This document shows positions 14,796-58,600 of a DNA stretch of 64,000 nt, one piece after another. The notes under the pieces were generated by a model. The model was given only the letters and a program-made list of their open reading frames with translations. It did not search any database and had not been told where the DNA came from. Each line of letters begins with the position of its first letter. Positions within the stretch are counted from its first letter, which is position 1. The stretch is from positions 558,001 through 622,000 of the forward strand of contig NZ_CP139247.1 in NCBI RefSeq assembly GCF_034087045.1, given 5' to 3'. Origin of the DNA: Chitinophaga sancti (GTDB lineage: Bacteria > Bacteroidota > Bacteroidia > Chitinophagales > Chitinophagaceae). A program made the position numbers and the translations under genes.

Positions 14796-16521
14796 TTAGG
14801 GTGTGCTGAATAAGTATTAATCTATTGTTAATCAATGTTGTATGGCCTGTTTTTTGCTTGAATAGTGTATAAATATTGAATGAATCATCTCCAAAAGCAT
14901 GCAGCCATGATACGTTATACACCTGCAAAACAATTGACATTAGAAGGTTTTTCCACACCCTTCTCGCAGCAGTTATCCACTTCCAACAGGTGGGTTATAC
15001 TCGCTGCAAAGATTCCGTGGGACAAACTGGCGGATGTGTATTATAAAAAGATGCGGGCTGATTTCGGAGCGCCAACCTTGAGTGCGCGGATGGTAATTGG
15101 TGCGGTGATCATCAAACATATACTGAATATAGACGATCGTGAGGTAGTAGAGCAGATCACAGAAAACATATATCTGCAATATTTTGTAGGTCTAAGCAGT
15201 TTTCAACAGGAAGCTCCCTTTGATGCATCGCTGATGGTCAGTATTAGAAAACGGTTAGGCGTAGAGGTGATGTCCAGGTTGAATGAGATTATCTTGCAGG
15301 AAGCGGGATTAACCAAAGCGAAAGAAGAGAAAACATCGGATGCCGGCAGTAAGGATGAAAGTGATGGGGATGGAGGAGAGAGCAATAAAGTTGGCTGCCA
15401 GGCGGATGCAGAGATAGTAAAAGAAACGCCATCTGAAGGACTATCAGGAACATTGATGTTAGACGCGACGGTGTCAGAGCAACAGATCGATTATCCAACG
15501 GATATTAAGTTATTAAATGAGGGGCGCCGTCAATTGGAAGGGATAATAGAGCGGGGATGTCTGGCTGCTGAACTGATTATGCCGCGGATGTATCGCAATA
15601 TAGCCAGGAAGCAATATTTGAACATTGCCAAAAAGAAAAACAAAAGCAAAAGAGACATACGCAGGGGTATCCGTCAGCAATTGCAATATGTTAAGCGGGA
15701 TTTAAAGTATATCAACTGGCTGATTGAAACAGGACCTACTTTTAAGGAGACATTGAAACCGAAAGAGTGGACGTTAATACAAGTGATCCAGGAAATGTAT
15801 CGTCAGCAGGTAGAGATGTATAAGAAAAGAGAACAGAAAATATCTGATCGGATTGTAAGTATCTATCAACCGCATGTGCGTCCGATGCCGAGAGGCAAAG
15901 ACCGCGTATCAACGGAGTTTGGCAGCAAGCAACTGGTGTTGTTGAAAGATGGTTACACACATATTGAGAAGCTGAGTTGGGATAATTACAATGAAGGAGG
16001 ATTACTAATCGAATGCCTGGAAACCCATAAACGCTTGTTTGGGTGTTATCCGGAGCGGGTATTAGGAGATCAGTTGTTCGGCACACGTGAAAACCGACGA
16101 TACATGAAGGAAAAAGGGATCCGTTATGTTGGCAAGCCATTGGGTCGGCCCTCATCAGATAGTAAGCAGCAAAAGCGATTATTGCAAAAGCAGATGCCGG
16201 AACGAAATGCGATTGAAGGGAAATTTGGACAGGGGAAAAATGCATACGGTCTGGGTAAGATCAAGGCCCGTCTTAAGGATACAGCTGAGAGTTGGGTGAT
16301 GTCTATTTACTTTGTTATGAATCTGCTTAAACTGGCAGCAGGTTCTTTTTTGTCATTACTCCAAATCTATTACTGGCTGGTAACAGAGGGTTATTTAACG
16401 ATAATGGTGAGTTGCCCGGATGCACAACTTAGACCTCGATATATGAGACGTATGGAATGGTAAATAGCAAGGTGTCAAAATGAAATATAATTCATCGGAA
16501 AACTTATTCAGCAGACCCTAA
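14796..16521 (+). mobile_element. Complete insertion sequence, IS5/IS1182-like
   Basis: 1726 bp bounded by 20-bp terminal inverted repeats at 14796-14815 and 16502-16521 that differ at one position (TTAGGGTG... versus TTAGGGTC... read inward). It holds one DDE transposase gene. The flanks (CTCTCTAG on the left, ATATCTTC on the right) do not show a target duplication. On the right the IS interrupts a VapE-like gene whose remainder is not found on the left side. This suggests that a deletion or rearrangement followed insertion. Confidence 0.85.
14880..16463 (+). CDS. DDE transposase, DUF772-type (IS5/IS1182-like)
   Basis: 527 aa. The N-terminal DUF772-like DNA-binding part ('MIRYTPAKQLTLEGF', 'IKHILNIDDREVVEQI') is followed by an Asp/Glu/Gly-rich hydrophilic insert and a catalytic RNase H-like domain. 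Candidate catalytic residues are the Asp in 'LMLDATV', the Asp in 'VLGDQLFG' and the Glu in 'ERNAIEGKFGQGK'. The frame is intact and both IS ends are present, so the element may be active. Start choice: ATG 14880 gives nine extra residues over ATG 14907 (MIRYTP...), where related transposases commonly begin, so the shorter start is quite possible. The family name is my recognition of the DUF772 layout; IS5 versus IS1182 cannot be settled by eye. Confidence 0.85.
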   Translation: MNHLQKHAAMIRYTPAKQLTLEGFSTPFSQQLSTSNRWVILAAKIPWDKLADVYYKKMRADFGAPTLSARMVIGAVIIKHILNIDDREVVEQITENIYLQYFVGLSSFQQEAPFDASLMVSIRKRLGVEVMSRLNEIILQEAGLTKAKEEKTSDAGSKDESDGDGGESNKVGCQADAEIVKETPSEGLSGTLMLDATVSEQQIDYPTDIKLLNEGRRQLEGIIERGCLAAELIMPRMYRNIARKQYLNIAKKKNKSKRDIRRGIRQQLQYVKRDLKYINWLIETGPTFKETLKPKEWTLIQVIQEMYRQQVEMYKKREQKISDRIVSIYQPHVRPMPRGKDRVSTEFGSKQLVLLKDGYTHIEKLSWDNYNEGGLLIECLETHKRLFGCYPERVLGDQLFGTRENRRYMKEKGIRYVGKPLGRPSSDSKQQKRLLQKQMPERNAIEGKFGQGKNAYGLGKIKARLKDTAESWVMSIYFVMNLLKLAAGSFLSLLQIYYWLVTEGYLTIMVSCPDAQLRPRYMRRMEW

Positions 16522-44474: not shown

Positions 44475-44876
44475 ATGAGATCTATATTTACGTGGCTGCT
44501 GCTAATCACGTTCTTCTGCAGCTGTGAGAAAAATGATACGGAGGCAACGCCTTCTATCGATGTGACCGGTTCCTGGGAACTGGCCGCCAGTATGAAACAG
44601 CCCGATACCACCTGGCAGGCGGTTGCTGCTGCGGATTCTGCGACGTATTCTTTTGATGTAAACGGACAGGTCTCCTATTCGACTAAATCATGGCGTACTA
44701 CAGGCACCTATAAAGTGATTGCTGATGGGAGCAAGGTAAAGCTCATTATCAGTACCGATTCTTTGTCTCAATATCTGGAGGTAGAGAAGACGAGTGATTC
44801 TACAATCCGGGTGGACGACTGGTTAAAGGCGGTGAATAAGGGCTATACCAGTAAGAAGTTTGTCAGGGTTTTTTAA
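44475..44876 (+). CDS. Lipocalin-like lipoprotein
   Basis: 133 aa from ATG 44475 (MRSIFTWLLLITFFCSCEK), chosen over the GTG at 44469 because it starts at the signal. The lipobox Cys lies at about residue 17. The mature part shows the short lipocalin-like pattern 'DVTGSWELAAS', 'YSFDVNGQVSYSTKSWRTTG' and 'YKVIADGSKVKLIIS', ending in beta strands. Domains like this are common in Bacteroidota and their ligands are unknown. It stands alone, 250 bp after the YHS gene. Confidence 0.75.
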   Translation: MRSIFTWLLLITFFCSCEKNDTEATPSIDVTGSWELAASMKQPDTTWQAVAAADSATYSFDVNGQVSYSTKSWRTTGTYKVIADGSKVKLIISTDSLSQYLEVEKTSDSTIRVDDWLKAVNKGYTSKKFVRVF

Positions 44877-45033
44877 AAGAAACATCCCGGGATAATTCCC
44901 GGGACGGTCAGTTAAACAGCTTATGAAAATCTACGCTTACGTTCAGATTATTAACCTGAAGGTCGGTAGTTAATATTATGACAGTGTTACCAGAGGATTA
45001 CCAACGTATTAACAATTAGTTGTAGCGACATAT

Positions 45034-47046: not shown

Positions 47047-50000
47047 TTAGAAACTATACCTCAAACCTAACTGCATCTGGTGTCTGCTCGCAAAGAAATC
47101 CTTTGAATAAGGAGTTCCTGGATTAGTCCATGTATAAACAGGATTTGCAGTCGCTGAACCAGCAGTCGCAGTCTTCAAACCTACACTCGCTGTTGAGTTG
47201 AATGTATTCGGAGAGAAGTACTGTACACCCCAATTCTTATTAATCAGATTCGTCACATTCACGATATCATAAGTAAGCGTGATTGTATGCAGCGTCTTAC
47301 CACTCTTGAAATTGAAATCCTGTGTGAAACGGAAGTCAGCAGAAGTATTCCAGGGTGTACGACCACCATTACGCTCTGTAAACTCACCCTTACGTGTCTT
47401 CAGGTACTTATCACCTTCTACATAAGCAAAGAATGCATCTGCCATATCCTGATTAGCAGCAGTGAAGAAAGTACGGGCCTCTGCCTGATCCTTTGGAATA
47501 TACACCAGACTTACCTGCTGTGGAGTACCCTGAATTGTACTGTTCACAAATCCATAAGAGAAAGGAACACCAGAAGATGTATTAAAGAACACCGCAAAGT
47601 TTGCTACCCAACGATTCTCCTTAGTCCAGTCAACTTTGTAAGAGGCTGTCGCAACGATACGATGACGGATATCAAAGTTAGAATAAGCCAGACCAGGATT
47701 GTTAGGATTCAGTGCCTGATTCAGCTGCCAGTTAGACTCCATTGAGTTACGGATACCATTGGTGATATCTTTAGACTGACCATAAGTATAAGCTACACTT
47801 GCATTCAGACCAAACTTCCATGTCTTGTTTGCCTGACCGGTAATGCTGTAACGGTAACCCTGCTTGGTATTTGATAACAGGTAAGCATTAGTAAATTTAG
47901 AGTTGATCTTAGCACCAGTATAGATTGGCTGCTGGTGTTTAGTATCATAAGGCAAATAGTAAGGATTATCAACCAGGTTTACCTGCTGGAATTTCAGATC
48001 GTTGATAGTCTTTGTATAAATACCTTCTACAGTGAAACGCCATTGGTTCTGTGTAGAATAATCCAACGCTAAGCTGCTTCTCCACATTGATGGCATCTTA
48101 AAGTTATTATCGATCATATCCACCTGTGTAGCACCAGTTGCATCATGTACATCTACACCCTGTGCACTCACGAACTGTGCAGCACCCTGGTTGCTCACCT
48201 TTACAGGATTAGAACCAGTAGCAGGAGCATCGCTGGCACTTGTATAACCAAATTTCTTATCGTACGCTCCATAAGTTACACCATTGTTGTAGTAAGCGTA
48301 ACCTAACCATGCGAAAGGAATACGACCGGTGAAGATACCAGTACCACCACGCAGGATCAGGCTCTGATCGCCATTGATGTCGAAGTTGAAACCTAAGCGT
48401 GGAGAGATCTGTACGTTATTCAGGTACTTGTTCTTGATATCGCTTGGTTTGGTATACGTATAAGTAGTACCGTAGTTTGCATCTACAGGAGCACCAGTTG
48501 TTTTCACGCTCAGCGGTTGCTTGTTAGGCAGGCTGGTATAATCTAAACGCACACCAGGAGTCAGTTTGAAACGGTCAGTGATATGGATCTCATCCTGTGC
48601 ATAGATAGAGTACAGGTTGATCTTGAACGCTGCTGGTGGGTGAGACATGATATAATCACGTGAGTTATCAGTGTAGTTGAAGTTACCACGTACACGACTC
48701 GGCTGATCAGCCAGGAAAGAAGCAATGCTGCTGTAGTCAACACGGCCGTTCCAGGAGTTTACGAAACCATAAGTAATGTTGTAAAACTCGTTGTGTGTAC
48801 CGATATTGATGTTATGCCTACCTTTGAAGATATTCACGTTATCGGTGAATTCAAAGGTTTTTTGTTTCATGTTGAAGATAGCCGCTTCACGGTCAGTACC
48901 TAAGAAGATAGTACCACCATTGCTCGCGATCTGGATCTGAGGCAGTGAAGGATCAGACAGTGGATCACGGTAATCATGCACACTGCTATAACCCAGGATC
49001 AAACTGTTTGACACCGTGTTATTGAAATGGCTTTTCAATTCAGCAACTGTGGATGTCTGGTTGTTGGTTTGTTTGTAATCAATACCGCTGAAACGGAAGT
49101 TCTGTTGGTCACGCTCCAGGTTAGTCGCTTCGGAGAAGATGGTATTGTTACGGATAGACAGCTGGTGCTTGTCGTTGATATTCCAGTCTAAACGGTTAAA
49201 GAACTTAGTAGAGTTGGAATAGATATTATAGTTACCGTAAGTACCTGCGTTGTATTTACCAGTTTTATCTACATCCAGTGCACTCATGTGATCAGCGATC
49301 TCTTTAGCCTGATCAGCAGTCAGCAAGGTCATGTCGGAAGAACCAGCAGCAAGGATCACAGGATCCTGACGACGGGTGATCTCTTCGTTGGTAAAGAAGA
49401 ACAATTTGTCTTTGATGATTGGGAAACCAACACGTACACCTGTCTGGTATTCGTGGAAGCTGGAAGGCTCTTTAGAACCATCACCTGCGTTGTTCTTACC
49501 AATCATTGCTGCATTACGACCGAAAGCGTAAATAGAAGCATGTACTTCGTTGGTACCGCTACGTGTTACAGCATTGATACTACCACCGAGGAAGTTACCA
49601 ATCTTTACGTCGTAAGGAGCCAGGTATACCTGAATATCCTGAACGGCATCCAGAGAAACCGGGTTAGTACGGGTAGAGCTACCTGGCTGTCCGGAGCTGT
49701 TAGTCTGACCACCCAGAGAAGGGCTAAAGCCAATAGCGTCGTTATTGATCGCACCATCCAGGGTTACGTTGTTATAACGGAAGTTGGAACCCAGGAAGGA
49801 GTTGTTATTACTTTGAGGAGTACCACGAGTGAAGTCCTGGAAACTACGGTTCAGGGAAGGCAATGTTTTCAAAGCGTTCTGACCTACACGGAAACCGCCT
49901 GGTTTACCAGTGTTGTTGCCTTTTACTACTACTTCGCTCAGTGCAGTAGATTCATCCTGCAACAGGAAGTTGAAGGTTACACTACCCAGTGATAAGTTGA

Positions 50001-50289
50001 TATCATTTCTTTCTTCCTTCTTAAATCCGATGAAAGTAACGGTGATGGTATAAGGACCACCAGGATTCAGGTTGTTGATCAGGTAACGGCCTTCTGCGTT
50101 GGTTTGTCCACCATATTTAGTACCGGTACCGGTGTTTATAGCAAGCACGGTTACTCCAGGCAAAGGTTCTCCTTTTGCGCTTACTACCTTACCAGTAAGT
50201 TGTGACGTTGTAATCTGCGCCTCTACGTTGGTTGCAGCTAGTACAAGGATGCTAAATAAAAAAATTAGTGAAGAGTAAATCTTATTCAC
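47047..50289 (-). CDS. Oar-like TonB-dependent outer-membrane receptor
   Basis: 1080 aa. Signal peptide (residues 1-24), then a carboxypeptidase-regulatory-like domain ('TGKVVSAKGEPLPGVTVLAI'), and a plug domain containing 'FRYNNVTLDGAINNDAIGF' and 'GSINAVTRSGTNEVHASIYA'. A large beta-barrel follows, ending in 'HQMQLGLRYSF' with terminal Phe. The length and plug sequence fit the Oar (OmpA-related) group of TonB receptors. I infer that it imports a phosphate-containing or other ligand under phosphate limitation, because a triple TTAAYA box sits 20 bp before its -7 element. A second box further upstream appears to drive a separate short RNA. Confidence 0.88.
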   Translation of the reverse strand: MNKIYSSLIFLFSILVLAATNVEAQITTSQLTGKVVSAKGEPLPGVTVLAINTGTGTKYGGQTNAEGRYLINNLNPGGPYTITVTFIGFKKEERNDINLSLGSVTFNFLLQDESTALSEVVVKGNNTGKPGGFRVGQNALKTLPSLNRSFQDFTRGTPQSNNNSFLGSNFRYNNVTLDGAINNDAIGFSPSLGGQTNSSGQPGSSTRTNPVSLDAVQDIQVYLAPYDVKIGNFLGGSINAVTRSGTNEVHASIYAFGRNAAMIGKNNAGDGSKEPSSFHEYQTGVRVGFPIIKDKLFFFTNEEITRRQDPVILAAGSSDMTLLTADQAKEIADHMSALDVDKTGKYNAGTYGNYNIYSNSTKFFNRLDWNINDKHQLSIRNNTIFSEATNLERDQQNFRFSGIDYKQTNNQTSTVAELKSHFNNTVSNSLILGYSSVHDYRDPLSDPSLPQIQIASNGGTIFLGTDREAAIFNMKQKTFEFTDNVNIFKGRHNINIGTHNEFYNITYGFVNSWNGRVDYSSIASFLADQPSRVRGNFNYTDNSRDYIMSHPPAAFKINLYSIYAQDEIHITDRFKLTPGVRLDYTSLPNKQPLSVKTTGAPVDANYGTTYTYTKPSDIKNKYLNNVQISPRLGFNFDINGDQSLILRGGTGIFTGRIPFAWLGYAYYNNGVTYGAYDKKFGYTSASDAPATGSNPVKVSNQGAAQFVSAQGVDVHDATGATQVDMIDNNFKMPSMWRSSLALDYSTQNQWRFTVEGIYTKTINDLKFQQVNLVDNPYYLPYDTKHQQPIYTGAKINSKFTNAYLLSNTKQGYRYSITGQANKTWKFGLNASVAYTYGQSKDITNGIRNSMESNWQLNQALNPNNPGLAYSNFDIRHRIVATASYKVDWTKENRWVANFAVFFNTSSGVPFSYGFVNSTIQGTPQQVSLVYIPKDQAEARTFFTAANQDMADAFFAYVEGDKYLKTRKGEFTERNGGRTPWNTSADFRFTQDFNFKSGKTLHTITLTYDIVNVTNLINKNWGVQYFSPNTFNSTASVGLKTATAGSATANPVYTWTNPGTPYSKDFFASRHQMQLGLRYSF

Positions 50290-50306
50290 GTCAGTTAAAT
50301 TTGACG

Positions 50307-50362
50307 CAAACGTATCTCCGTAACATTACGCGTGTGTTAACACAATATTAAATTAATGTTAA
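50307..50362 (-). promoter_or_regulatory. Pho-box promoter A of the Oar-like receptor
   Basis: On the minus strand TTAACA-n5-TTAATA-n5-TTAACA (plus coordinates 50357-50362, 50346-50351, 50335-50340), then 20 bp, then TACGTTTG (50307-50314), a TAnnTTTG -7 element 18 bp before the ATG. The 11-bp hexamer spacing matches known PhoP/PhoB-type boxes. Confidence 0.65.
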
Positions 50363-50431
50363 CGAGCGCATGTAACACTATGTACCAACGAATTACAAAT
50401 GTATTCGATGATAATTTGTGGAAAATAATTT

Positions 50432-50517
50432 AAAAAATGACGTGTATGGCAAGCCATCACATAAGTGCGGATAAGAAGAATTTGTTAGTTCGTTATAGGT
50501 ATTCTCTTAGTTCGCAA
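50432..50517 (-). ncRNA. Candidate phosphate-responsive small RNA, about 86 nt
   Basis: Promoter B (-7 element at 50524-50531) points to a start near 50517 on the minus strand. A hairpin (GTG-ATGGC-TT-GCCAT-a-CAC, 50460-50442) followed by GTCA and six T ends it near 50432. No credible ORF lies inside. It could instead be the long leader of the Oar-like receptor mRNA with an attenuator. Confidence 0.4.
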
Positions 50518-50523
50518 TATGTT

Positions 50524-50568
50524 CAAAAATAGGTGGTCTATGTTAAGGGAGTGTTACCCTAATATTAA
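50524..50568 (-). promoter_or_regulatory. Pho-box promoter B
   Basis: Minus strand TTAATA-n5-GTAACA-n5-TTAACA (plus coordinates 50563-50568, 50552-50557, 50541-50546), then 9 bp, then TATTTTTG (50524-50531). The middle hexamer is 20 bp from the -7 element, the same phase as promoters A and C. Confidence 0.6.
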
Positions 50569-50642
50569 CTTTATCTCTGATAACTGTTAAAATTTTCACA
50601 AGAAGGTAAGCCATGGGAGCGGAAAACACACAAAGACTTGCT

Positions 50643-50682
50643 AAAAAAAGAAAACGCTTTAGCCAATGGCTAAAGCGTTTTC
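50643..50682 (-). terminator. Terminator of the TonB receptor-lipoprotein operon
   Basis: GAAAACGCTTTAGCC pairs with GGCTAAAGCGTTTTC (15 bp, 3-nt loop), with a T-tract on the minus strand. Confidence 0.9.
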
Positions 50683-50702
50683 AAAATTGCTATATAATAA
50701 TA

Positions 50703-52109
50703 TTAATATACAGTTGTCTCTGCACCTGCAGTCGTCCAACCTGTAGTCCAATCAGTAGTACCATCAAATGCACCAATGTAGGTAGTAGCAGTGAAACCGG
50801 TAGTCAGATTAGAGAAATCAGCACCAGTCAGTGCAGGAGAACCTGTTTTCAGCAGGAAGCTAGGTGTACCAACGTTAGTAGAAGAAACACCAGCAGAGAA
50901 CAGGTAAGGATTTGCCAGCAGCACATCAGTCGCGTTAGTCAACACAGTTGTGCTGGTAGTAGCCCACCATGCAGTCCATGCAGCATTGTCGGTAGTGCTC
51001 CACTCGCTCTTGGTTGCAGCAGTAGTGCTACCAGCGATGATGTTGTGAGAGAATACCAGGGTACCTTCAGAAGCGTTAGCAGAAGTCTTGTGAGATACAA
51101 CTTTGCTGTCATCCAGGTAGAAACCGTAAGGGAAACCGATGATCAGAGAGTTGTACAGGCTCATAGAAGAGTTACGACGGATTTGTACACCATGCTGATA
51201 GTTAGCGTTGATAGAACCTGTAGAACCAGGACCAACGATAGTCATGTTTGAGAAAACAGCTTTCGTCTGTGGTGTATTGGAAGAACCAGTTGCATCGTTA
51301 TCAGACTCAAAACCGTTTGAACCAGATTGGTCAGCAATAGTTCTGAAACGCTGTGCCAGACCAAACTGTACACGACCAGAGAAACCATTGTCAGTATCGA
51401 AATCATCATCCCAGGTATAAGTTGCAACCAGGTGATCACAATTTACAGTACCACCGAACCACTCGAAAGAGTCGTCACCGGAACGATAAACCTGTACATA
51501 GCTGATAGTAGTACCACTACCAACACCACCCATAGTCAAACCATTGATTTCGTTATCAGGAGAGTAAGCAACACCAGCAAACTCGATACGTACATATTTC
51601 AGTACACCAGAGTTGTCAGCAGCATCAGTACCACCATAATAGATATAAGTTTTTTCATCACCACCGTTAGTCGCAGTCAGACCACCTTCTATCTTAGCTT
51701 CGCCACCAGTAGCGTTGATTGGAGCTTTACCCAGCAGGATAATACCACCCCAGTCACCATCCTGACGTGCACCAACTTCCTGTGCAGAGGTGAAGATGAT
51801 TGGTTTTGCAGCAGTACCTGTTGCATTTATTTTACCACCACGGGTTACTACCAGCGTACCTTTAGAGGCTTTATCACCCACGATGATAGTACCAGGTTCG
51901 ATAGTCAGGGTTGCACCGCTCATTACATATACAAACCCTTTCAGCATGTATTTTTTGTCAGCAGATAAAGTTTGATTTGCTTTGATGTCTCCGGAGAGAG
52001 TTACGTACGTAGAATCAGTCGTAGATGTAGTATTGTCATCATCTTTGCTACAGGAGGTCATTGCCCCAAAAGATGCCATTACCAGCAAGCCTATAAGATA
52101 CCTTTTCAT
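50703..52109 (-). CDS. Beta-helix-like surface lipoprotein, partner of TonB receptor
   Basis: 468 aa. Signal with lipobox 'ASFGAMTSCSKDDD': the Cys is followed by acidic residues, a pattern known to send Bacteroidota lipoproteins to the cell surface. The mature protein is Gly/Ser/Thr-rich with repeated strand-turn units ('GFVYVMSGATLTIEPGTIIV', 'GDWGGIILLGKAPINATGG', 'SYVQVYRSGDDSFEWFGGTV'), suggesting a right-handed beta-helix. It lies 38 bp downstream of the TonB receptor gene and is its probable operon partner, analogous to substrate-binding lipoproteins that pair with TonB receptors. Phosphate control is inferred from the box upstream of the receptor. No SusD-type TPR fold is seen. Confidence 0.8.
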   Translation of the reverse strand: MKRYLIGLLVMASFGAMTSCSKDDDNTTSTTDSTYVTLSGDIKANQTLSADKKYMLKGFVYVMSGATLTIEPGTIIVGDKASKGTLVVTRGGKINATGTAAKPIIFTSAQEVGARQDGDWGGIILLGKAPINATGGEAKIEGGLTATNGGDEKTYIYYGGTDAADNSGVLKYVRIEFAGVAYSPDNEINGLTMGGVGSGTTISYVQVYRSGDDSFEWFGGTVNCDHLVATYTWDDDFDTDNGFSGRVQFGLAQRFRTIADQSGSNGFESDNDATGSSNTPQTKAVFSNMTIVGPGSTGSINANYQHGVQIRRNSSMSLYNSLIIGFPYGFYLDDSKVVSHKTSANASEGTLVFSHNIIAGSTTAATKSEWSTTDNAAWTAWWATTSTTVLTNATDVLLANPYLFSAGVSSTNVGTPSFLLKTGSPALTGADFSNLTTGFTATTYIGAFDGTTDWTTGWTTAGAETTVY

Positions 52110-52147
52110 GGATTGTCTAATTGAGTTTAGGTTCAGAAAAATTTAAA

Positions 52148-54979
52148 CTACTTTGATAAATGATATGTAAAAGTCAATGTGAATGATGTTCCAGGGCGAT
52201 ACTGCTGTAACAGGTAGTCTTCGCCGGAGTTGATGCTTCCTTTTTGATATGCAGGATTATCGAATTTGTTGTTACCATTCTGGTCATAGTAGAATTGATA
52301 ACGGGCATTTAACAGGTCTTTGATGTTCAGACGGAATCCGCTACGCTTGCTCACATTCAGGTTAGCCTGGAAGTCCAGCAGGTTTCTTGGGCTTTCGTAG
52401 ATGTTACCGAGTCTGCCGGAACCATCTGCGCCTCCACCTTCACCTACCAGGTACAGACGCTGACCAATTCTGTTATACAGCAGGTTAAAGCTGACCTTAT
52501 CATTAGGCAATGCATAACCAAGGCTTGTATTTACTACATAGTTAGATTGACCGGATAATGGTCTGTCTTTCGCGGTAGAAGTTGTATTGTCAGATACTAC
52601 AGATTTGATATAAGCAACGTTCGCATAGAAGGTTACATTATCCAGGAAGCTATGCGGTGCTATGAATCCCAGTTTCTTTCTCACTTCTACTTCCACACCT
52701 ACATTGTATGCATTAGGATAGTTGTAAGGCGTTACATCATACTGGCTCAGACCTGAAGATGTTACCCTGCTTTCTATCGGATTGTTGAAGTATTTGTAGA
52801 ATACAGATCCTGATACTACTTCACCCGCTGCAGGGAAGATTTCATAACGCAGATCCGCATTATCAATCTGACTGCGCTTCAGGTTGATATTACCATTGAT
52901 GAGTGAAGACATCTCATAGTCGTAATATGCTAATGGCGCAATCTCACGCAGCTCTGGTCTTGCTACTGTTCTGTAATAAGAACCACGCAGGTTGGAACGC
53001 TCATTCAGTGCATAAGTAATGTTTGCTGAAGGCAATACATCCAACCAGTTATTGTCCAGGTTAATAGTTGCGTTATTGATTGGTGACTTCAACTTCATAT
53101 TATATGACTCCACACGCACACCCCATACGATACGGATCTTATCAGAAAGACGGTTATCGAGTTGTGCATATCCTGCTGTTGTAAGTGTCGTCGCCCTGTA
53201 TTCATCTGCTGTAGAGGTGATGTCATTCAGGTCATAGAAATCCTGATCGATCACATCATCACCAAACAGTGTGCTGATTGGACGTTGTGCAACTACATCG
53301 CCACCATCTTTAATAGGATCCAGTTTCATACCAATATAGCGGGCATGAAAATCTCTGGAACGATACTGTCCTAACACACCTGCTTTGAACAGGCTCTTGT
53401 TGTCAAGGAAGCGGAAAGGATGTGAATAGTTTGCACTGGCGATATAGATGTTTTCATCCAGATCAGAGAACAGCCGGCTGTTGGCTTTACCTACCGATCC
53501 GATATCAGCTACCATTACAGCAGATGCATCATCGATGGCACGGCCATAGGATACTTTACGCTGGTCAGGCTGGTTGTTGGTGACTTTGTTGTAAGACAAT
53601 AACCAGTTCACTTTACTCTGCCCCTGTCCAACCTGATGATCACCTTCTACGGATGTTTTGAACAGTGATTTCTGAATCAGGTCAAATGCATAGTAGTTGA
53701 TATACTTAGAGCTACCGATATTGTCACCTTCTCTATACAGGAAATTGTCATCAAAGATCTTGTTGTAAATGTTTCTCCATACCAGTTTGCTTTTGCCTGT
53801 AGTGTAACCTACGTTTGCAACAGCACCCAGGTTAGAAGAGTATTTATATACATTGTCAGTATAATCGAAGTTGTCATAATGCCTGATCATGTCTTTGGCC
53901 ACTGTCTCATTGTGTGAATAAGTCACACCTGCAATCACACCCAGGCTACCATGTTTCTTAGTATCCCAATGATTTCCCCAGCTACCCTGCAGGTTGATGG
54001 CGGGTGCACCATTGCGTTCTCTTACACGATAATCATTGTTCAGCGACTTCTCTGCAGCACGAGTTTGTGCAGCACTCAGCTGGTTGTTTACAATTGCTGT
54101 AGTAGATGGAAAAGCTGATGGCAACTGACGTGCGCCATTATCAAAACCTAAGATATCAGTGCTTGATTTATAACCAGTTTTGAAAGGCTGGAAAGTAGAA
54201 ACAGTATTGAATCCGGTACCAAGTGAAATATCGAAGAATTGTTGTTCAGGAATTTCTTTGGTTTGTACATTGATCACACCACCCGCAAAGTCACCAGGCA
54301 ATTCAGGTGTAGCGGATTTGGTGATAACAATGTTGTCGATCATATTCGCAGGAATGATGTCGAAGGAGAAAGCCTTACGGTTAGGTTCTGTACTTGGCAG
54401 GTTGGCATTGTCTACCAGCGCTACATTGTAACGATCACTCAGACCTCGTACAATTACGAACTTATTATCCTGGATAGTAGTACCGCTTACACGCTTCAGT
54501 ACTTCGCCAGTACTGCGGTCCGGCGATTTCTTAATTACATCGGCAGAGATACCGTCTGATACAGCGGCATTATTTTTCTGCTGAGTATATAATGCGTTGA
54601 TTGTTTCCTGCTTGAAAGAGCCTTTGATCACTACTTCAGCCAGGTTTTTGGAAGTAGGTTCGTCCATGATCACGGGCAGACTGGTAGCATTACTACCTTT
54701 TACAACCACTTCAGTGACTGCCTTGGTCTGATACCCCATGTATTTGAATTCGAGTGTATAGGTACCTGGTGCAATGTTTAATGTATAGCTCCCTGATACA
54801 TCAGTCACAGTACCCTGTGTGGTCCCCTGGATTAAAACGGTTACACCAATTAACGGCTCCCCGGTTTTCTGGTCAGTTACCTTTCCAGTAATTCTTCCAT
54901 TATCGAATGCAAAAGATGGCAATATAGCGTACAAAAATAAGCATACACATAACAGTGCGGACTCTAAAACTTGCTTCAC
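52148..54979 (-). CDS. TonB-dependent outer-membrane receptor
   Basis: 943 aa. Signal peptide to about residue 25, a CarboxypepD_reg-like domain ('ITGKVTDQKTGEPLIGVTVL'), plug domain ('ALVDNANLPSTEPNRKAFSF', 'PELPGDFAGGVINVQTKEIP') and a barrel ending in 'SFTLTFTYHLSK'. The spacer 'MDEPTSKNLAEVVIKGSFKQ' separates regulatory and plug domains. It is the first gene of a two-gene operon with the surface lipoprotein. The promoter carries a perfect-phase TTAACA triple box and a -7 element, so I infer use under phosphate starvation, perhaps for organophosphate or nucleotide-like ligands. The true substrate is not visible. Confidence 0.88.
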   Translation of the reverse strand: MKQVLESALLCVCLFLYAILPSFAFDNGRITGKVTDQKTGEPLIGVTVLIQGTTQGTVTDVSGSYTLNIAPGTYTLEFKYMGYQTKAVTEVVVKGSNATSLPVIMDEPTSKNLAEVVIKGSFKQETINALYTQQKNNAAVSDGISADVIKKSPDRSTGEVLKRVSGTTIQDNKFVIVRGLSDRYNVALVDNANLPSTEPNRKAFSFDIIPANMIDNIVITKSATPELPGDFAGGVINVQTKEIPEQQFFDISLGTGFNTVSTFQPFKTGYKSSTDILGFDNGARQLPSAFPSTTAIVNNQLSAAQTRAAEKSLNNDYRVRERNGAPAINLQGSWGNHWDTKKHGSLGVIAGVTYSHNETVAKDMIRHYDNFDYTDNVYKYSSNLGAVANVGYTTGKSKLVWRNIYNKIFDDNFLYREGDNIGSSKYINYYAFDLIQKSLFKTSVEGDHQVGQGQSKVNWLLSYNKVTNNQPDQRKVSYGRAIDDASAVMVADIGSVGKANSRLFSDLDENIYIASANYSHPFRFLDNKSLFKAGVLGQYRSRDFHARYIGMKLDPIKDGGDVVAQRPISTLFGDDVIDQDFYDLNDITSTADEYRATTLTTAGYAQLDNRLSDKIRIVWGVRVESYNMKLKSPINNATINLDNNWLDVLPSANITYALNERSNLRGSYYRTVARPELREIAPLAYYDYEMSSLINGNINLKRSQIDNADLRYEIFPAAGEVVSGSVFYKYFNNPIESRVTSSGLSQYDVTPYNYPNAYNVGVEVEVRKKLGFIAPHSFLDNVTFYANVAYIKSVVSDNTTSTAKDRPLSGQSNYVVNTSLGYALPNDKVSFNLLYNRIGQRLYLVGEGGGADGSGRLGNIYESPRNLLDFQANLNVSKRSGFRLNIKDLLNARYQFYYDQNGNNKFDNPAYQKGSINSGEDYLLQQYRPGTSFTLTFTYHLSK

Positions 54980-55016
54980 AGTAGAATTATTCGTTCGTGA
55001 TAGATTGATAGTACAG

Positions 55017-55072
55017 CAAAAGTATAGGGGCTATATAACCGTAGTGTTAACGGAGCGTTACCAGAATGTTAA
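55017..55072 (-). promoter_or_regulatory. Pho-box promoter C of the TonB receptor-lipoprotein operon
   Basis: Minus strand TTAACA-n5-GTAACG-n5-TTAACA (plus coordinates 55067-55072, 55056-55061, 55045-55050), 20 bp, TACTTTTG (55017-55024). The layout is the same as promoter A. Confidence 0.65.
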
Positions 55073-55134
55073 CAGTTTTACGTAAGTTCGTTGTAGGTAT
55101 AGGAATATAAGGTTTACATAGTGCAATATAATAA

Positions 55135-55554
55135 TTAACAGGAGAAGGGCTGTGGTCCTTGTCTGCTATTATTATGAAGATTTATTAATCTTTCGAGCTG
55201 AATGTTATATTCGTTACCGTTAGCATAACCTGTCTTTGCAATATCATTGAGACCTTTGATCAGTTGGAACAGGTGCATGCTTTTGTTGGTAAACGGTTTG
55301 TTGTCTTTGTTACAGAGTTCGAGGGTAAAGTTGAATCTGTCTTCCAGTTCTTCTTCGAATTCACGAAGGCTCAGGGTTTCGTCGATGGGGTATTCAATGA
55401 GCATATTTTCCAGAAAGCCTGCTTCCTGCAAGGTATCGAAAGCATTAGCCGGGGAGTTCCGCATATATACTGCAATGTTACACGAGAGTAACCGTTGGAA
55501 CTGCATCTGCAAAAGAGATACTGTCATTAAAGGATGTAACTTCAATACTTTCAT
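55135..55554 (-). CDS. Unknown 139-aa protein with Pho-box promoter
   Basis: Small cytoplasmic protein, not recognised: no signal, no membrane helix. A helical N-terminal half ('LMTVSLLQMQFQRLLSCNIA') is followed by an acidic stretch 'ETLSLREFEEELEDRFNFTL' and a C-terminal helix 'HLFQLIKGLNDIAKTG'. The start MKVLKLHPLM at 55554 is preceded by promoter D with TTAATA/ATAACA hexamers at 11-bp spacing. It lies between the TonB operon and the LpxH-like gene, all on the minus strand. The promoter context suggests a role in phosphate adaptation; the biochemical function is unknown. Confidence 0.65.
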   Translation of the reverse strand: MKVLKLHPLMTVSLLQMQFQRLLSCNIAVYMRNSPANAFDTLQEAGFLENMLIEYPIDETLSLREFEEELEDRFNFTLELCNKDNKPFTNKSMHLFQLIKGLNDIAKTGYANGNEYNIQLERLINLHNNSRQGPQPFSC

Positions 55555-55597
55555 TTCACGTTTGGATTATTATTTCCAGTCTTACTGAATTTGTTTG

Positions 55598-55642
55598 CAA
55601 ACTTAGTTCGTGCGTATTAAGTGAATATTAAGGGGGTGTTAT
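55598..55642 (-). promoter_or_regulatory. Pho-box promoter D of the 139-aa gene
   Basis: Minus strand ATAACA-n5-TTAATA-n5-TTAATA (plus coordinates 55637-55642, 55626-55631, 55615-55620), 9 bp, TAAGTTTG (55598-55605). Same layout as promoter B; the middle hexamer is 20 bp from the -7 element. Confidence 0.6.
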
Positions 55643-55697
55643 CTAATCATAAATATATGTTAAAGTATAACATATATAACCTTGCATTTACTCTTCA

Positions 55698-55736
55698 AAC
55701 CAATCCGTTTCCACCTTTAGCGAAAACGGATTGGTT
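55698..55736 (-). terminator. Hairpin downstream of LpxH-like gene
   Basis: A 13-bp perfect stem AACCAATCCGTTT/AAACGGATTGGTT in the 3' region of the minus-strand phosphoesterase gene. No T-tract follows, so terminator function is uncertain. Confidence 0.45.
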
Positions 55737-55786
55737 GGGGACAGGCCTGCGGCCCGCTGAAATAGCAGGAATCAGAAATACCAATA

Positions 55787-56623
55787 TTATGAATTAGGGA
55801 AAGTCACTGCTTTCGACAAATCAATATCTCCCCATATCTGCTGATCTTCTTCCTCTTCCGGCAGTACTACTTTTGATTTCGTTACAGGGTATTGGTAGAG
55901 GGTCCATTCTTTATTTACATATTCAAGAGAAGTGAGGCTTTCCACCCAGTCGCCGGAGTTCAGGTACGTTACCGTCTTACCGTTATGTACCATTTCCTTA
56001 ATGATTGGCTGGTGGATATGCCCACATGCTACTACATCAAAGCCTTTGTCTACAGCGATTTCAGCTACGATCTGTTCAAAGTCGGAGATGAATTTCACCG
56101 CCTGTTTCACCCCATGTTTCACTTTTTTGGAAAAACTCATCTTTTCCCTTCCCATGCTTTCCAGGATATTGTTCACCAGGCGGTTGAGAATAATGAGCAG
56201 ATCATAGCCTTTGCCCCCCAGTTTTGCAAGCCACTTGGAGTTTTTCATGGTTATATCATATACGTCTCCATGAAAGAACCAGTGTTTTTTGCCGTCTACG
56301 TCCAGGATGAGTTTATTATCGATAGTGAGGTTACCCAAACCAAACCCGGCAAATTTGCGGAGGGCTTCGTCGTGGTTGCCGGTCAGATAATATACATCTG
56401 TCCCCTTTCCTGTCATTTTCAGGATTCTGCGGATCACCTTGGTATGCGCTTTTGGGAAGTAGCGTTTGCTGAACTGCCAGATGTCGATAATATCTCCATT
56501 GAGAATCAGTATCTTAGGATCAATGCTATCTAGGTATTGGACAAGCTCTTTTGCGTGACAGCCGTATATTCCGAGATGCACATCGGAAATAACGACTATA
56601 TCAAGTGGGCGTTTATCGGACAT
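55787..56623 (-). CDS. LpxH-like metallophosphoesterase
   Basis: 278 aa. Calcineurin-like phosphoesterase motifs appear in order: 'ISDVHLG' (DxH), 'ILNGDIIDIW' (GDxxD), 'LTGNHDE' (GNHD), 'FFHGDVYD' and 'ACGHIHQP' (GHxH). Insert and order resemble UDP-2,3-diacylglucosamine diphosphatases of lipid A synthesis, and many Bacteroidota carry such LpxH2-like enzymes. An alternative is a general phosphodiesterase. It lies inside the Pho island, but no triple box points toward it; box E upstream faces the divergent DUF47 gene. A phosphate link is therefore only positional. Confidence 0.82.
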   Translation of the reverse strand: MSDKRPLDIVVISDVHLGIYGCHAKELVQYLDSIDPKILILNGDIIDIWQFSKRYFPKAHTKVIRRILKMTGKGTDVYYLTGNHDEALRKFAGFGLGNLTIDNKLILDVDGKKHWFFHGDVYDITMKNSKWLAKLGGKGYDLLIILNRLVNNILESMGREKMSFSKKVKHGVKQAVKFISDFEQIVAEIAVDKGFDVVACGHIHQPIIKEMVHNGKTVTYLNSGDWVESLTSLEYVNKEWTLYQYPVTKSKVVLPEEEEDQQIWGDIDLSKAVTFPNS

Positions 56624-56807
56624 TGTTTACGCTGGTGAACCGGAAAGCCGGATTCGTTGTTTCTAATGGTGATAAATAGTGTTCGCTCGCTGTAGGTGTA
56701 TTTGCCCCTGCGCTGGGCCTTTTCCGGATAAAATCATCCTTGAAAACCAGGCTCGTACACTGCAGGTTTTTACAATACAAAGAAAAAATTGCTATATTAC
56801 TTTTATA

Positions 56808-56878
56808 TTAATACAGTGTTAAGGAATCATTAAGAAAAATTATTTCTTGGAGGTATTGGTCGCGGAAAGCTATTTTTG
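56808..56878 (+). promoter_or_regulatory. Pho-box promoter E of the DUF47-PiT operon
   Basis: Plus strand TTAATA-n5-TTAAGG-n5-TTAAGA at 56808, 56819 and 56830; a TATTTTTG -7-like element lies at 56871-56878. The 35-bp gap to it is out of phase with the other four promoters, so either the -7 assignment or the box is less certain here. Confidence 0.5.
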
Positions 56879-56902
56879 CGCCAAATTCAAACTATATAGC
56901 GT

Positions 56903-57556
56903 ATGGGAGGCTTCAATTCCTTTGTTAAATTGTTTATTCCTAAGGACAGGGTATTCTATTCATTATTTGAGGATGTAGCTGCCAATCTGGTGGAAATGGG
57001 AAAAGTGTTGATAGAACTGGTAAATTCTACAGACCCTGCTGTAAGAAAAGATAAGACGCATCTGATCGAAAGACTGGAGCATAAGAACGACGATTTTACC
57101 CATCGCATATTCGTAGAACTGGGCCAGAACTTCATCACCCCTTTTGACCGTGAAGATATTCACCACCTGGCATCTACGCTGGATGACGTAGCAGATTATA
57201 TTCATGGCTCTGCCAAACGTTTAGATCTGTATAAAGTGGTAGAAATCAGCGATAGCGTTCGTAAACTGGCAGACCTGATTTACCAGGGTTGCGTAGAGTT
57301 GCACAAAGCGATCCCTGAACTGAGAACCATGTCTAACATGCGTAATATCACTGATGCCTGTGTAAGGATCAACAGCCTGGAAAACCATGCTGATGATATC
57401 TATGATATGGCCATCGCTGACCTGTTCGAGAAAGAATCCAACAATGCAGGCGAGCTGCTGAAAATGCGTGAATTGTATCAGGCACTGGAAATCGCTACCG
57501 ATAAATGCGAAGACTGCGCCAATGTGATCGAATCTATCATTATTAAATATGCATAG
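56903..57556 (+). CDS. DUF47 family (PhoU-like) phosphate transport regulator
   Basis: 217 aa, all-helical, with repeated PhoU-type helices: 'RLEHKNDDFTHRIFVELGQN', 'REDIHHLASTLDDVADYIHG', 'INSLENHADDIYDMAIADLF' and 'ALEIATDKCEDCANVIESI'. DUF47 proteins are cytoplasmic PhoU relatives that accompany PiT transporters and tune their activity. It is directly upstream of the PiT gene (39 bp), so co-transcription is very likely. It lies downstream of promoter E. Confidence 0.92.
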   Translation: MGGFNSFVKLFIPKDRVFYSLFEDVAANLVEMGKVLIELVNSTDPAVRKDKTHLIERLEHKNDDFTHRIFVELGQNFITPFDREDIHHLASTLDDVADYIHGSAKRLDLYKVVEISDSVRKLADLIYQGCVELHKAIPELRTMSNMRNITDACVRINSLENHADDIYDMAIADLFEKESNNAGELLKMRELYQALEIATDKCEDCANVIESIIIKYA

Positions 57557-57595
57557 TCGCCCGGTCCTTAATGGCTCAATGCAAACTGTATTCTA

Positions 57596-58600
57596 ATGGC
57601 CTTACTTGTCACAATTATTATACTGGCGTTCATCTTTGACTTTATTAACGGGTTTCATGATGCTGCCAACTCTATAGCTACAATCGTTTCCACAAAAGTG
57701 CTGACCCCGTTTCAAGCCGTATTGTGGGCTGCTATATTCAACTTTGCCGCTTTTTTTATCTCAAAGTACGTTTACGGGGAATTTAAGGTAGGTAATACCA
57801 TTGCTAAATCAGTATTCGAGCAGTTTATCACCCTGAAAGTGATCTTCTCCGGACTGGTAGCGGCGATTGTATGGAACCTGCTGACCTGGTGGTATGGTAT
57901 TCCATCCAGTTCTTCCCATACCCTGATTGGTGGCTTTATTGGCTCTGCCGTTGCTGCTGCTCATGGTAACTTTGATGTGATCAACTATGGTAAGGTAATG
58001 CCTATCATTTACTTTATCGTGCTGGCGCCCTTTATAGGGATGGCCGTCGCCTTTGTGATCACTATTATAATTATGAACGTTTGCCGCAAGGCAAACCCAT
58101 ATAGGGCAGAAAGCTGGTTCAAACGCCTTCAGCTGGTATCTTCTGGTGCCCTGAGCCTTGCCCATGGTGGTAATGACGCTCAAAAGGTAATGGGTATCAT
58201 CGCTGCTGCCCTGGTAGCGCATGGTATTATCCCTGACCTCATGCATATACCGAACTGGGTACCGTTCTCGTGTTTCGCTGCAATTGGTTTAGGTACCATG
58301 AGTGGTGGCTGGAAGATTGTAAAGACAATGGGATCCCGCATTACCAAAGTGACTCCGCTGGAAGGTGTAGCCGCTGAAACCGCAGGTGCCATTACGCTTT
58401 ACCTCACTGAAGCACTGGCCATTCCCGTAAGTACCACACACACAATTACCGGTTCTATTATCGGGGTAGGTGCTACCAAACGTCTTTCAGCAGTACGCTG
58501 GGGGGTAACAGTGAGCCTGCTCTGGGCATGGATCCTGACCATTCCGATCAGTGCTTTACTGGCTGCTGCCGTGTATTTTATCGTGAATCTCTTTTTTTAA
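57596..58600 (+). CDS. PiT-family inorganic phosphate transporter
   Basis: 334 aa with about ten hydrophobic segments. The two PiT signature repeats are 'DFINGFHDAANSIATIVST' near the N-terminus and 'SLAHGGNDAQKVMGIIAAAL' in the middle, the latter being the GxND motif of the family. Further conserved loops are 'WWYGIPSSSSHTLIGG' and 'ALAIPVSTTHTITGSIIG'. It is a low-affinity, ion-coupled phosphate importer in the inner membrane. With DUF47 and the Pho-box promoters of the adjacent outer-membrane systems, it gives a route for phosphate across both membranes. Confidence 0.95.
   Translation: MALLVTIIILAFIFDFINGFHDAANSIATIVSTKVLTPFQAVLWAAIFNFAAFFISKYVYGEFKVGNTIAKSVFEQFITLKVIFSGLVAAIVWNLLTWWYGIPSSSSHTLIGGFIGSAVAAAHGNFDVINYGKVMPIIYFIVLAPFIGMAVAFVITIIIMNVCRKANPYRAESWFKRLQLVSSGALSLAHGGNDAQKVMGIIAAALVAHGIIPDLMHIPNWVPFSCFAAIGLGTMSGGWKIVKTMGSRITKVTPLEGVAAETAGAITLYLTEALAIPVSTTHTITGSIIGVGATKRLSAVRWGVTVSLLWAWILTIPISALLAAAVYFIVNLFF

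Follow-up and report, generated by a model that had tools for sequence, protein, structure and literature searches.

Direct 11-bp repeats in register with a promoter element, very probably a Pho box, in a probable phosphate-scavenging gene cluster of Chitinophaga sancti

Introduction

In Bacillus subtilis the PhoP box consists of direct TTAACA-like hexamers about 11 bp apart, with several of them at each promoter, ahead of the -10 region, and in Escherichia coli the PhoB box is built from the half-site CTGTCAT, usually with two half-sites per dimer. The present study concerns a comparable series of direct repeats in Chitinophaga sancti, a member of the Bacteroidota, located in a 64,000-nucleotide stretch (the window: bases 558001-622000 of the single-contig 8.32-Mb genome, designated G000, contig C1; L-numbers denote loci read and G-numbers genomes). 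Five such sites, each in fixed register with a promoter element of the form TAnnTTTG, lie within an island of genes that form a probable phosphate-scavenging cluster, and are very probably the operator (Pho box) of a PhoB orthologue.

Phosphate control has been studied in several other Bacteroidota. According to the available text of the relevant report, PhoB of Bacteroides fragilis binds the pst promoter, and pst, phosphatases and a porin are PhoB-dependent (PMC3547664); the terms 'consensus' and 'TTAA' have no occurrence in the main text of that paper. The accessible part of an account of Riemerella anatipestifer PhoP describes a global virulence regulator, autoregulated as judged by electrophoretic mobility shift assay, for which the most conserved nucleotides of the motif obtained by DNA affinity purification sequencing are TTTAACA, a motif likened by its authors to that of ArcA (PMC9603813). 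In Flavobacterium johnsoniae, as far as the available text describes it, low phosphate induces a receptor and a beta-helix-class lipoprotein (FII) encoded in the phoBR operon, a pf13620 receptor and PlcP (pf12850), with PitA named in a cluster figure (PMC8115612); 'pho box' has no occurrence in the text of that paper. A defined Pho box architecture for Bacteroidota was not found in the open-licence literature searched, in so far as its texts were available.

Architecture of the operator

The five sites, all on the minus strand, share a common layout in which three or four TTAAYA-like half-sites, one per 11 bp, are followed after 9 nt by TAnnTTTG, the first base of the half-sites often being G instead of T. 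Scores refer to a matrix built from these five sites.

50307..50362, minus strand: operator 1, four half-sites, 9 nt, TACGTTTG; upstream of a gene for a 1080-aa receptor-like protein; score 38.3
50524..50579, minus strand: operator 2, three half-sites, 9 nt, TATTTTTG; score 31.4
55017..55072, minus strand: operator 3, four half-sites (the last degenerate), 9 nt, TACTTTTG; score 36.6
55598..55653, minus strand: operator 4, half-sites, 9 nt, TAAGTTTG; precedes the gene for a 139-aa protein; score 35.8
56778..56833, minus strand: operator 5, TTAATG, TTAACA, TTAATA, GTAATA, 9 nt, TTTCTTTG; score 37.5

An earlier, sequence-only reading of this DNA had described five intergenic regions, each containing three TTAAYA-like hexamers at 11-bp spacing, with TAnnTTTG following four of them at 9 or 20 bp. 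For sites 1-4 that description held on the minus strand: 50335-50362, 50541-50568, 55045-55072 and 55615-55642 differ from a perfect run of three TTAAYA with 11-bp spacing at 0, 1, 2 and 1 positions, respectively, and TAnnTTTG begins 20, 9, 20 and 9 bp after the respective triple boxes. Site 5, however, had been placed on the wrong strand, for its plus-strand sequence, TTAATA/TTAAGG/TTAAGA, has no promoter in register, and its minus-strand element TTTCTTTG is one mismatch from TAnnTTTG. The alternation between 9 and 20 bp arose because sites 1, 3 and 5 hold a degenerate half-site in the 20-nt gap (where the gap is 20 bp, GTAATG or GTTATA occupies it), so that the 9-nt gap is common to all. Operator 2 is a tandem copy upstream of operator 1 and shares its intergenic region, which reduces the number of regions to four.

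Within Chitinophaga, half-sites are kept as spacers and flanks diverge. In five other members of the genus, operators 1 and 4 score 35.0-38.3 and 32.2-36.6, respectively, and operator 2, with diverged spacers, 22.6-31.4. Among the rows compared, with the window's own counted in both cases, a site scoring at least 15 accompanies the 1080-aa protein or its orthologue in 13 of 15 (the misses being L136 and L141) and the 139-aa protein or its orthologue in all 6. Operator 3 precedes a TonB receptor/lipoprotein pair; three other Chitinophaga carry an extra Pho-type box (28.8-31.4) between receptor and lipoprotein gene (L072 9921, L073 9921 and L074 9919), a position at which the window has none.

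Occurrence within the genome

The boxes are real and lie far above chance. The five sites score 31.4-38.3 with the self-built matrix and 18.2-32.4 when each is left out in turn, against a background best of 14.6 in 140 kb of the same genome not selected for hits, and a top score of 17.1 among 20 Markov-1 shuffled versions of the window, scanned on the plus strand. With at most one mismatch, a degenerate pattern of three half-sites plus promoter gave six sites in the 8.3-Mb genome, five of them in the window. At up to three mismatches the same pattern gave 28 sites against 19 for its reversed form, on account of which hits with three mismatches were left unused and no wider regulon was drawn for this genome. 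A two-half-site pattern with at most two mismatches matched 27 times (reversed, 6), one match ending 27 bp upstream of pstS in pstSCAB.

The sixth of these sites, the sole other strong one of the genome (26.8), at G000:C1:1317085-1317128 on the minus strand (L023), lies upstream of a 140-aa protein without Pfam match. Two sets of candidates were set aside: at 3557726, before a 1060-aa receptor-like gene near pst, the TTAA repeats are out of register with any TAnnTTTG and are not claimed, and the sites at 4022976, 5403141 and 5494390, upstream of genes named by eye as sigma-factor-like, fall inside the noise range. A separate, identical 28-bp TTAACA...TTCAGCA segment is listed at seven genome positions, among them the copy at 14804-14831 of the window (minus strand), with coordinates on G000:C1 of 500981, 572804, 5152353, 5337509, 5341099, 5707044 and 6264961; it probably belongs to a repeated or mobile element and is no Pho box.

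Distribution across Bacteroidota

Searching 117 genomes of the family for three exact TTAAYA plus the promoter, with at most one mismatch, returned seven sites in five genomes and none for the control, four of the seven being island sites of the present genome and its genus-mate G006. An alignment search with the lipoprotein family gave 80 loci, of which seven without a readable receptor start were dropped. The receptor upstream region scored at least 15 in 61 of the 73 loci kept, compared with 8 of 73 on the reverse strand, and four of those eight (L115, L128, L132 and L146) face a divergent operon containing pst or phosphoesterase genes. Sites scoring at least 20 numbered 145 in 1.5 Mb, overlapping registers counted, as against 0 in one Markov shuffle.

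The periodicity of the half-sites is apparent without any matrix. Exact TAnnTTTG elements served as 54 anchors in 52 of 69 loci from outside Chitinophaga (the 17 without an exact element being dropped), and TAAY was found at -14, -25, -36, -47, -58 and -69 from the anchor in 72, 69, 87, 24, 57 and 63% of cases; at equal distances from 721 control anchors the range was 1.1-3.7%. The full operator of these relatives has up to six half-sites, the fourth position being the weakest, and might perhaps accommodate three dimers. That AT-rich intergenic DNA would yield TTAA-type repeats by chance is suggested by the plain triple-TTAAYA pattern, which with at most two mismatches was only mildly enriched (33 matches versus 24 reversed). 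This explanation is nevertheless contradicted already because the half-sites are periodic when anchored on TAnnTTTG alone; register with that element, clustering, footprint and cross-phylum association all speak against it, and its probability is practically nil.

In 149 genomes of the class, the pattern was scanned for without any use of gene information. The present genome (six sites) was left out, as was G197, with 40 matches in 11-bp tandem repeats (many, as in L211, in arrays of a TAATACRRTTG-like unit). The scan gave 43 sites in 32 genomes against nine control sites. Twenty-eight could be read at their locus (15 came without one), and 18 of these precede phosphate-type genes: PstS-like in four (three by PBP_like_2, one by translation), a PhoB-type regulator in three, Porin_O_P in three, DUF47 in one, a PF28492-type lipoprotein in five and a receptor in two, so that 11 of the 18 lie outside the receptor and lipoprotein families. 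Four Pontibacter loci have the receptor operon divergent from a run of pst genes headed by one further gene, with boxes facing both directions; this leading gene is Porin_O_P (checked in L132), and a PhoU-like gene was recognised by eye after pstB. Outside the Bacteroidia, a metagenome-assembled genome of the Ignavibacteriaceae has a four-half-site box (L148 7057, score 34.7) upstream of a receptor/lipoprotein operon and, further along, a second strong site (L148 16090, 32.2).

The candidate regulator

The best match in the genome to the PhoB model TIGR02154 is an OmpR-family regulator at G000:C1:1764477-1765133 (217.3 bits), which on the basis of sequence comparison is probably the PhoB orthologue of this organism. 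It is 53.5% identical to the L128 regulator, which adjoins a box, and among eight regulators of the genome compared it is the best match for those behind boxes in L212, L219 and L226 (55, 46 and 42%, the last being a 135-aa frame 299 bp from the site). A single match at E <= 1e-60 was present in 20 of 22 genomes.

Several results weigh against assigning the repeats to such a regulator. The candidate scores below the TIGR02154 cut-off (217.3 versus 296.2 bits), a threshold passed by 2 of 14 control genomes; its own promoter is unboxed (3.7), and its orthologues are boxed in 5 of 21 cases, with 2 of 21 on the reverse strand. The pst promoter of the same genome is weak with the full matrix (9.2), and PstS-like matches of the order are boxed in 5 of 30 cases (reverse strand, 0 of 30), many of these matches being distant, paralogues included. 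At the stringency of the class scan 115 of the 149 genomes had no site, and among the 28 sites read eight precede unrelated genes and two have no open reading frame within 350 bp. Finally, the targets printed in the available part of the Riemerella PhoP account are not especially phosphate genes (PMC9603813). Across the class the box does precede established phosphate genes (PstS-like 4 and PhoB-type 3 of 28); at pst and phoB of the genome of origin it is weak or absent. Boxes were checked for equal abundance at random sites or ahead of unrelated genes, and no such equality was observed, the eight exceptions just given notwithstanding.

The unboxed phoB candidate and those eight sites would also suit a box bound by another OmpR-family regulator, ArcA-like and concerned with envelope or redox functions, of whose regulon phosphate genes form a part; the Riemerella PhoP motif TTTAACA, similar to the E. 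coli ArcA motif and covering, in the accessible text, 583 peaks (PMC9603813), points in the same direction. By contrast, where the gene at a site is identified, PstS-like, Porin_O_P, PhoB-type and DUF47 genes predominate, and the pst operons of Pontibacter are boxed, leaving this alternative improbable. Control by a PhoB orthologue is strongly preferred, and activation rather than repression, like the response to phosphate itself, would follow a scheme of this kind. On phosphate starvation a kinase would phosphorylate the PhoB orthologue, dimers of which would bind the tandem 11-bp half-sites ending 9 nt upstream of the -7 element TAnnTTTG and replace the -33 element, as a class II activator does. 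The targets switched on would be two outer-membrane systems, the 139-aa protein and a phosphoesterase, probably together with a small RNA (see below).

Genes of the island

The genes preceded by operators 1-5 are as follows:

47047..50289, minus strand: 1080-aa TonB-receptor-like protein (OMP_b-brl_4 and CarboxypepD_reg by Pfam)
50703..52109, minus strand: 468-aa PF28492 lipoprotein, predicted to be mostly beta structure, beta-helix type
52148..54979, minus strand: 943-aa TonB-dependent receptor (Pfam and NCBIfam)
55135..55554, minus strand: 139-aa protein, function unassigned, without Pfam match
55787..56623, minus strand: calcineurin-like phosphoesterase (PF00149/PF12850)

A fold search with the 468-aa lipoprotein gave weak matches of beta-helix type, none at E <= 0.001, and its nearest named homologues are from Chitinophaga, as are the named homologues of the 139-aa protein among the best 120 of 145. 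The phosphoesterase may be PlcP-like, judging from its domain and from the neighbourhood of L128, where a 60% identical phosphoesterase sits with a GT28-type glycosyltransferase and the PhoB-type regulator, a gene set resembling the PlcP, glycosyltransferase and phoBR genes described in the available text on F. johnsoniae (PMC8115612). Assignment as LpxH was not supported, both scores lying well below the cut-offs (49.9 versus 134 bits, and 41 versus 190.35 bits).

Operator 5 and the DUF47-PiT genes

On the other side of operator 5 lie two phosphate genes:

56871..56878, plus strand: -7-like element of the DUF47 gene itself, TATTTTTG, invariant in six Chitinophaga
56903..57556, plus strand: DUF47 (PhoU_div) protein by domain match; control by operator 5 uncertain
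57596..58600, plus strand: PiT-type phosphate transporter (PHO4 family) by domain match

The sequence-only reading had placed box 5 before DUF47-PiT. In all six Chitinophaga compared, however, the box faces the divergent phosphoesterase, scoring 34.1-37.6 in that direction and 4.4-8.6 toward DUF47, and DUF47-PiT was rejected on this orientation (6/6) as an in-register target within the genus. Of the single Pho regulon then proposed, the marking by 11-bp repeats in promoter phase is upheld by the comparison across Bacteroidota, and DUF47-PiT as a direct target is not.

Operator 5 could nonetheless control DUF47-PiT as well, by shared activation or by reciprocal repression, a proposal compatible with a Pho box. 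In Sinorhizobium, orfA-pit is repressed by PhoB. DUF47 is head-to-head with a boxed gene in two Taibaiella loci, where the receptor side scores 24.7 and the DUF47 side 8.9 and 10.2, and, by eye, in L193, where it lies beside pstS; in L229 a box faces DUF47 itself. The phosphate/sulphate permease BF3715 of B. fragilis is listed as PhoB-dependent in the available text (PMC3547664). Set against these observations, the DUF47 promoter had no in-register box in any of the six Chitinophaga, and such dual control is best regarded as a tentative proposal, somewhat more doubtful than probable.

A sixth box and a small-RNA-like element

In relatives, an additional box lies behind the second receptor. What follows it is not an open reading frame but conserved sequence that closes with an intrinsic terminator. 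The corresponding features of the window are:

44957..45012, minus strand: operator 6, weak here (score 19.3), with a poor -7 element GACCTTCA; precedes the small-RNA-like element
44874..44951, minus strand: putative small RNA of about 78 nt, core 44917-44941 and then an intrinsic terminator, from fold and alignment

Of 79 Chitinophaga genomes, 26 carry the 25-nt core, each in a single copy (reversed control, 0), and it was not found outside Chitinophaga in a 195-genome sample of the family. A Pho-type box ends 14-16 nt upstream of the core in 21 of the 26 (reverse strand, 1 of 26), operator 6 scoring 19.3 in the present genome and four near relatives and 28.1-32.6 in 16 others. In four genomes the core, with a different terminator, begins 5-43 nt downstream of a lipoprotein gene 39-43% identical to that of the island. 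The remaining genome, with a 3-mismatch core match, has neither box nor lipoprotein gene, and is the exception to a 19-nt block identical in 25 of 26. An alignment of 13 of the 26 sequences indicated that pairing of the terminator stem is maintained, three pairs having changed on both sides.

No Rfam family was reached by the element, MicC (RF00121) being rejected at 24.8 bits against a gathering cut-off of 90 (E 0.19). A search for targets, in the form of the core complement near ATG, gave seven genome matches at no more than one mismatch versus two for the reversed control; one of the seven is the element itself and the other six are not at a convincing start codon. Taken at the level of sequence, the element is probably a phosphate-starvation small RNA. 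It is likely, with less assurance than applies to the operator, that a PhoB-controlled trans-acting small RNA belongs to the island, its 19-nt core having been kept as its setting moved between two places that are each probably under Pho control: immediately behind the lipoprotein stop, or stand-alone with its own Pho box, often near the second receptor gene. If so, it would constitute a phosphate-starvation small RNA of Bacteroidota.

Comparison with known systems

Relative to its original description, the island gains the phosphoesterase, DUF47-PiT becomes doubtful, the repeat array exceeds three half-sites, and the island reaches as far as the probable small RNA at 44.9 kb. The outcome is an operator for phosphate control, explicit and open to testing, in a phylum where PhoB and low-phosphate proteomes have already been studied. 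The rule of 11-bp half-sites, 9 nt and TAnnTTTG makes phosphate regulons predictable from genomes, allows unassigned genes such as those for the 139-aa protein and the PF28492 lipoproteins to be linked to phosphate, and comes with a candidate small RNA of phosphate starvation.

Judged by gene type, the low-phosphate regulon of F. johnsoniae appears similar to the island, with comparable receptor, lipoprotein and PlcP genes. The Riemerella PhoP account, in its accessible part, describes no 11-bp arrays, 9-nt rule or phosphate genes (PMC9603813).

The operator resembles the E. coli PhoB box in that 11-bp direct-repeat half-sites would replace an upstream promoter element, and differs from it in half-site sequence. 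With the B. subtilis PhoP box it shares direct TTAACA-like hexamers at about 11 bp, and it is set apart from that box by its occurrence in another phylum, by its -7 element TAnnTTTG, by the fixed 9-nt gap and by arrays of up to six half-sites in relatives.

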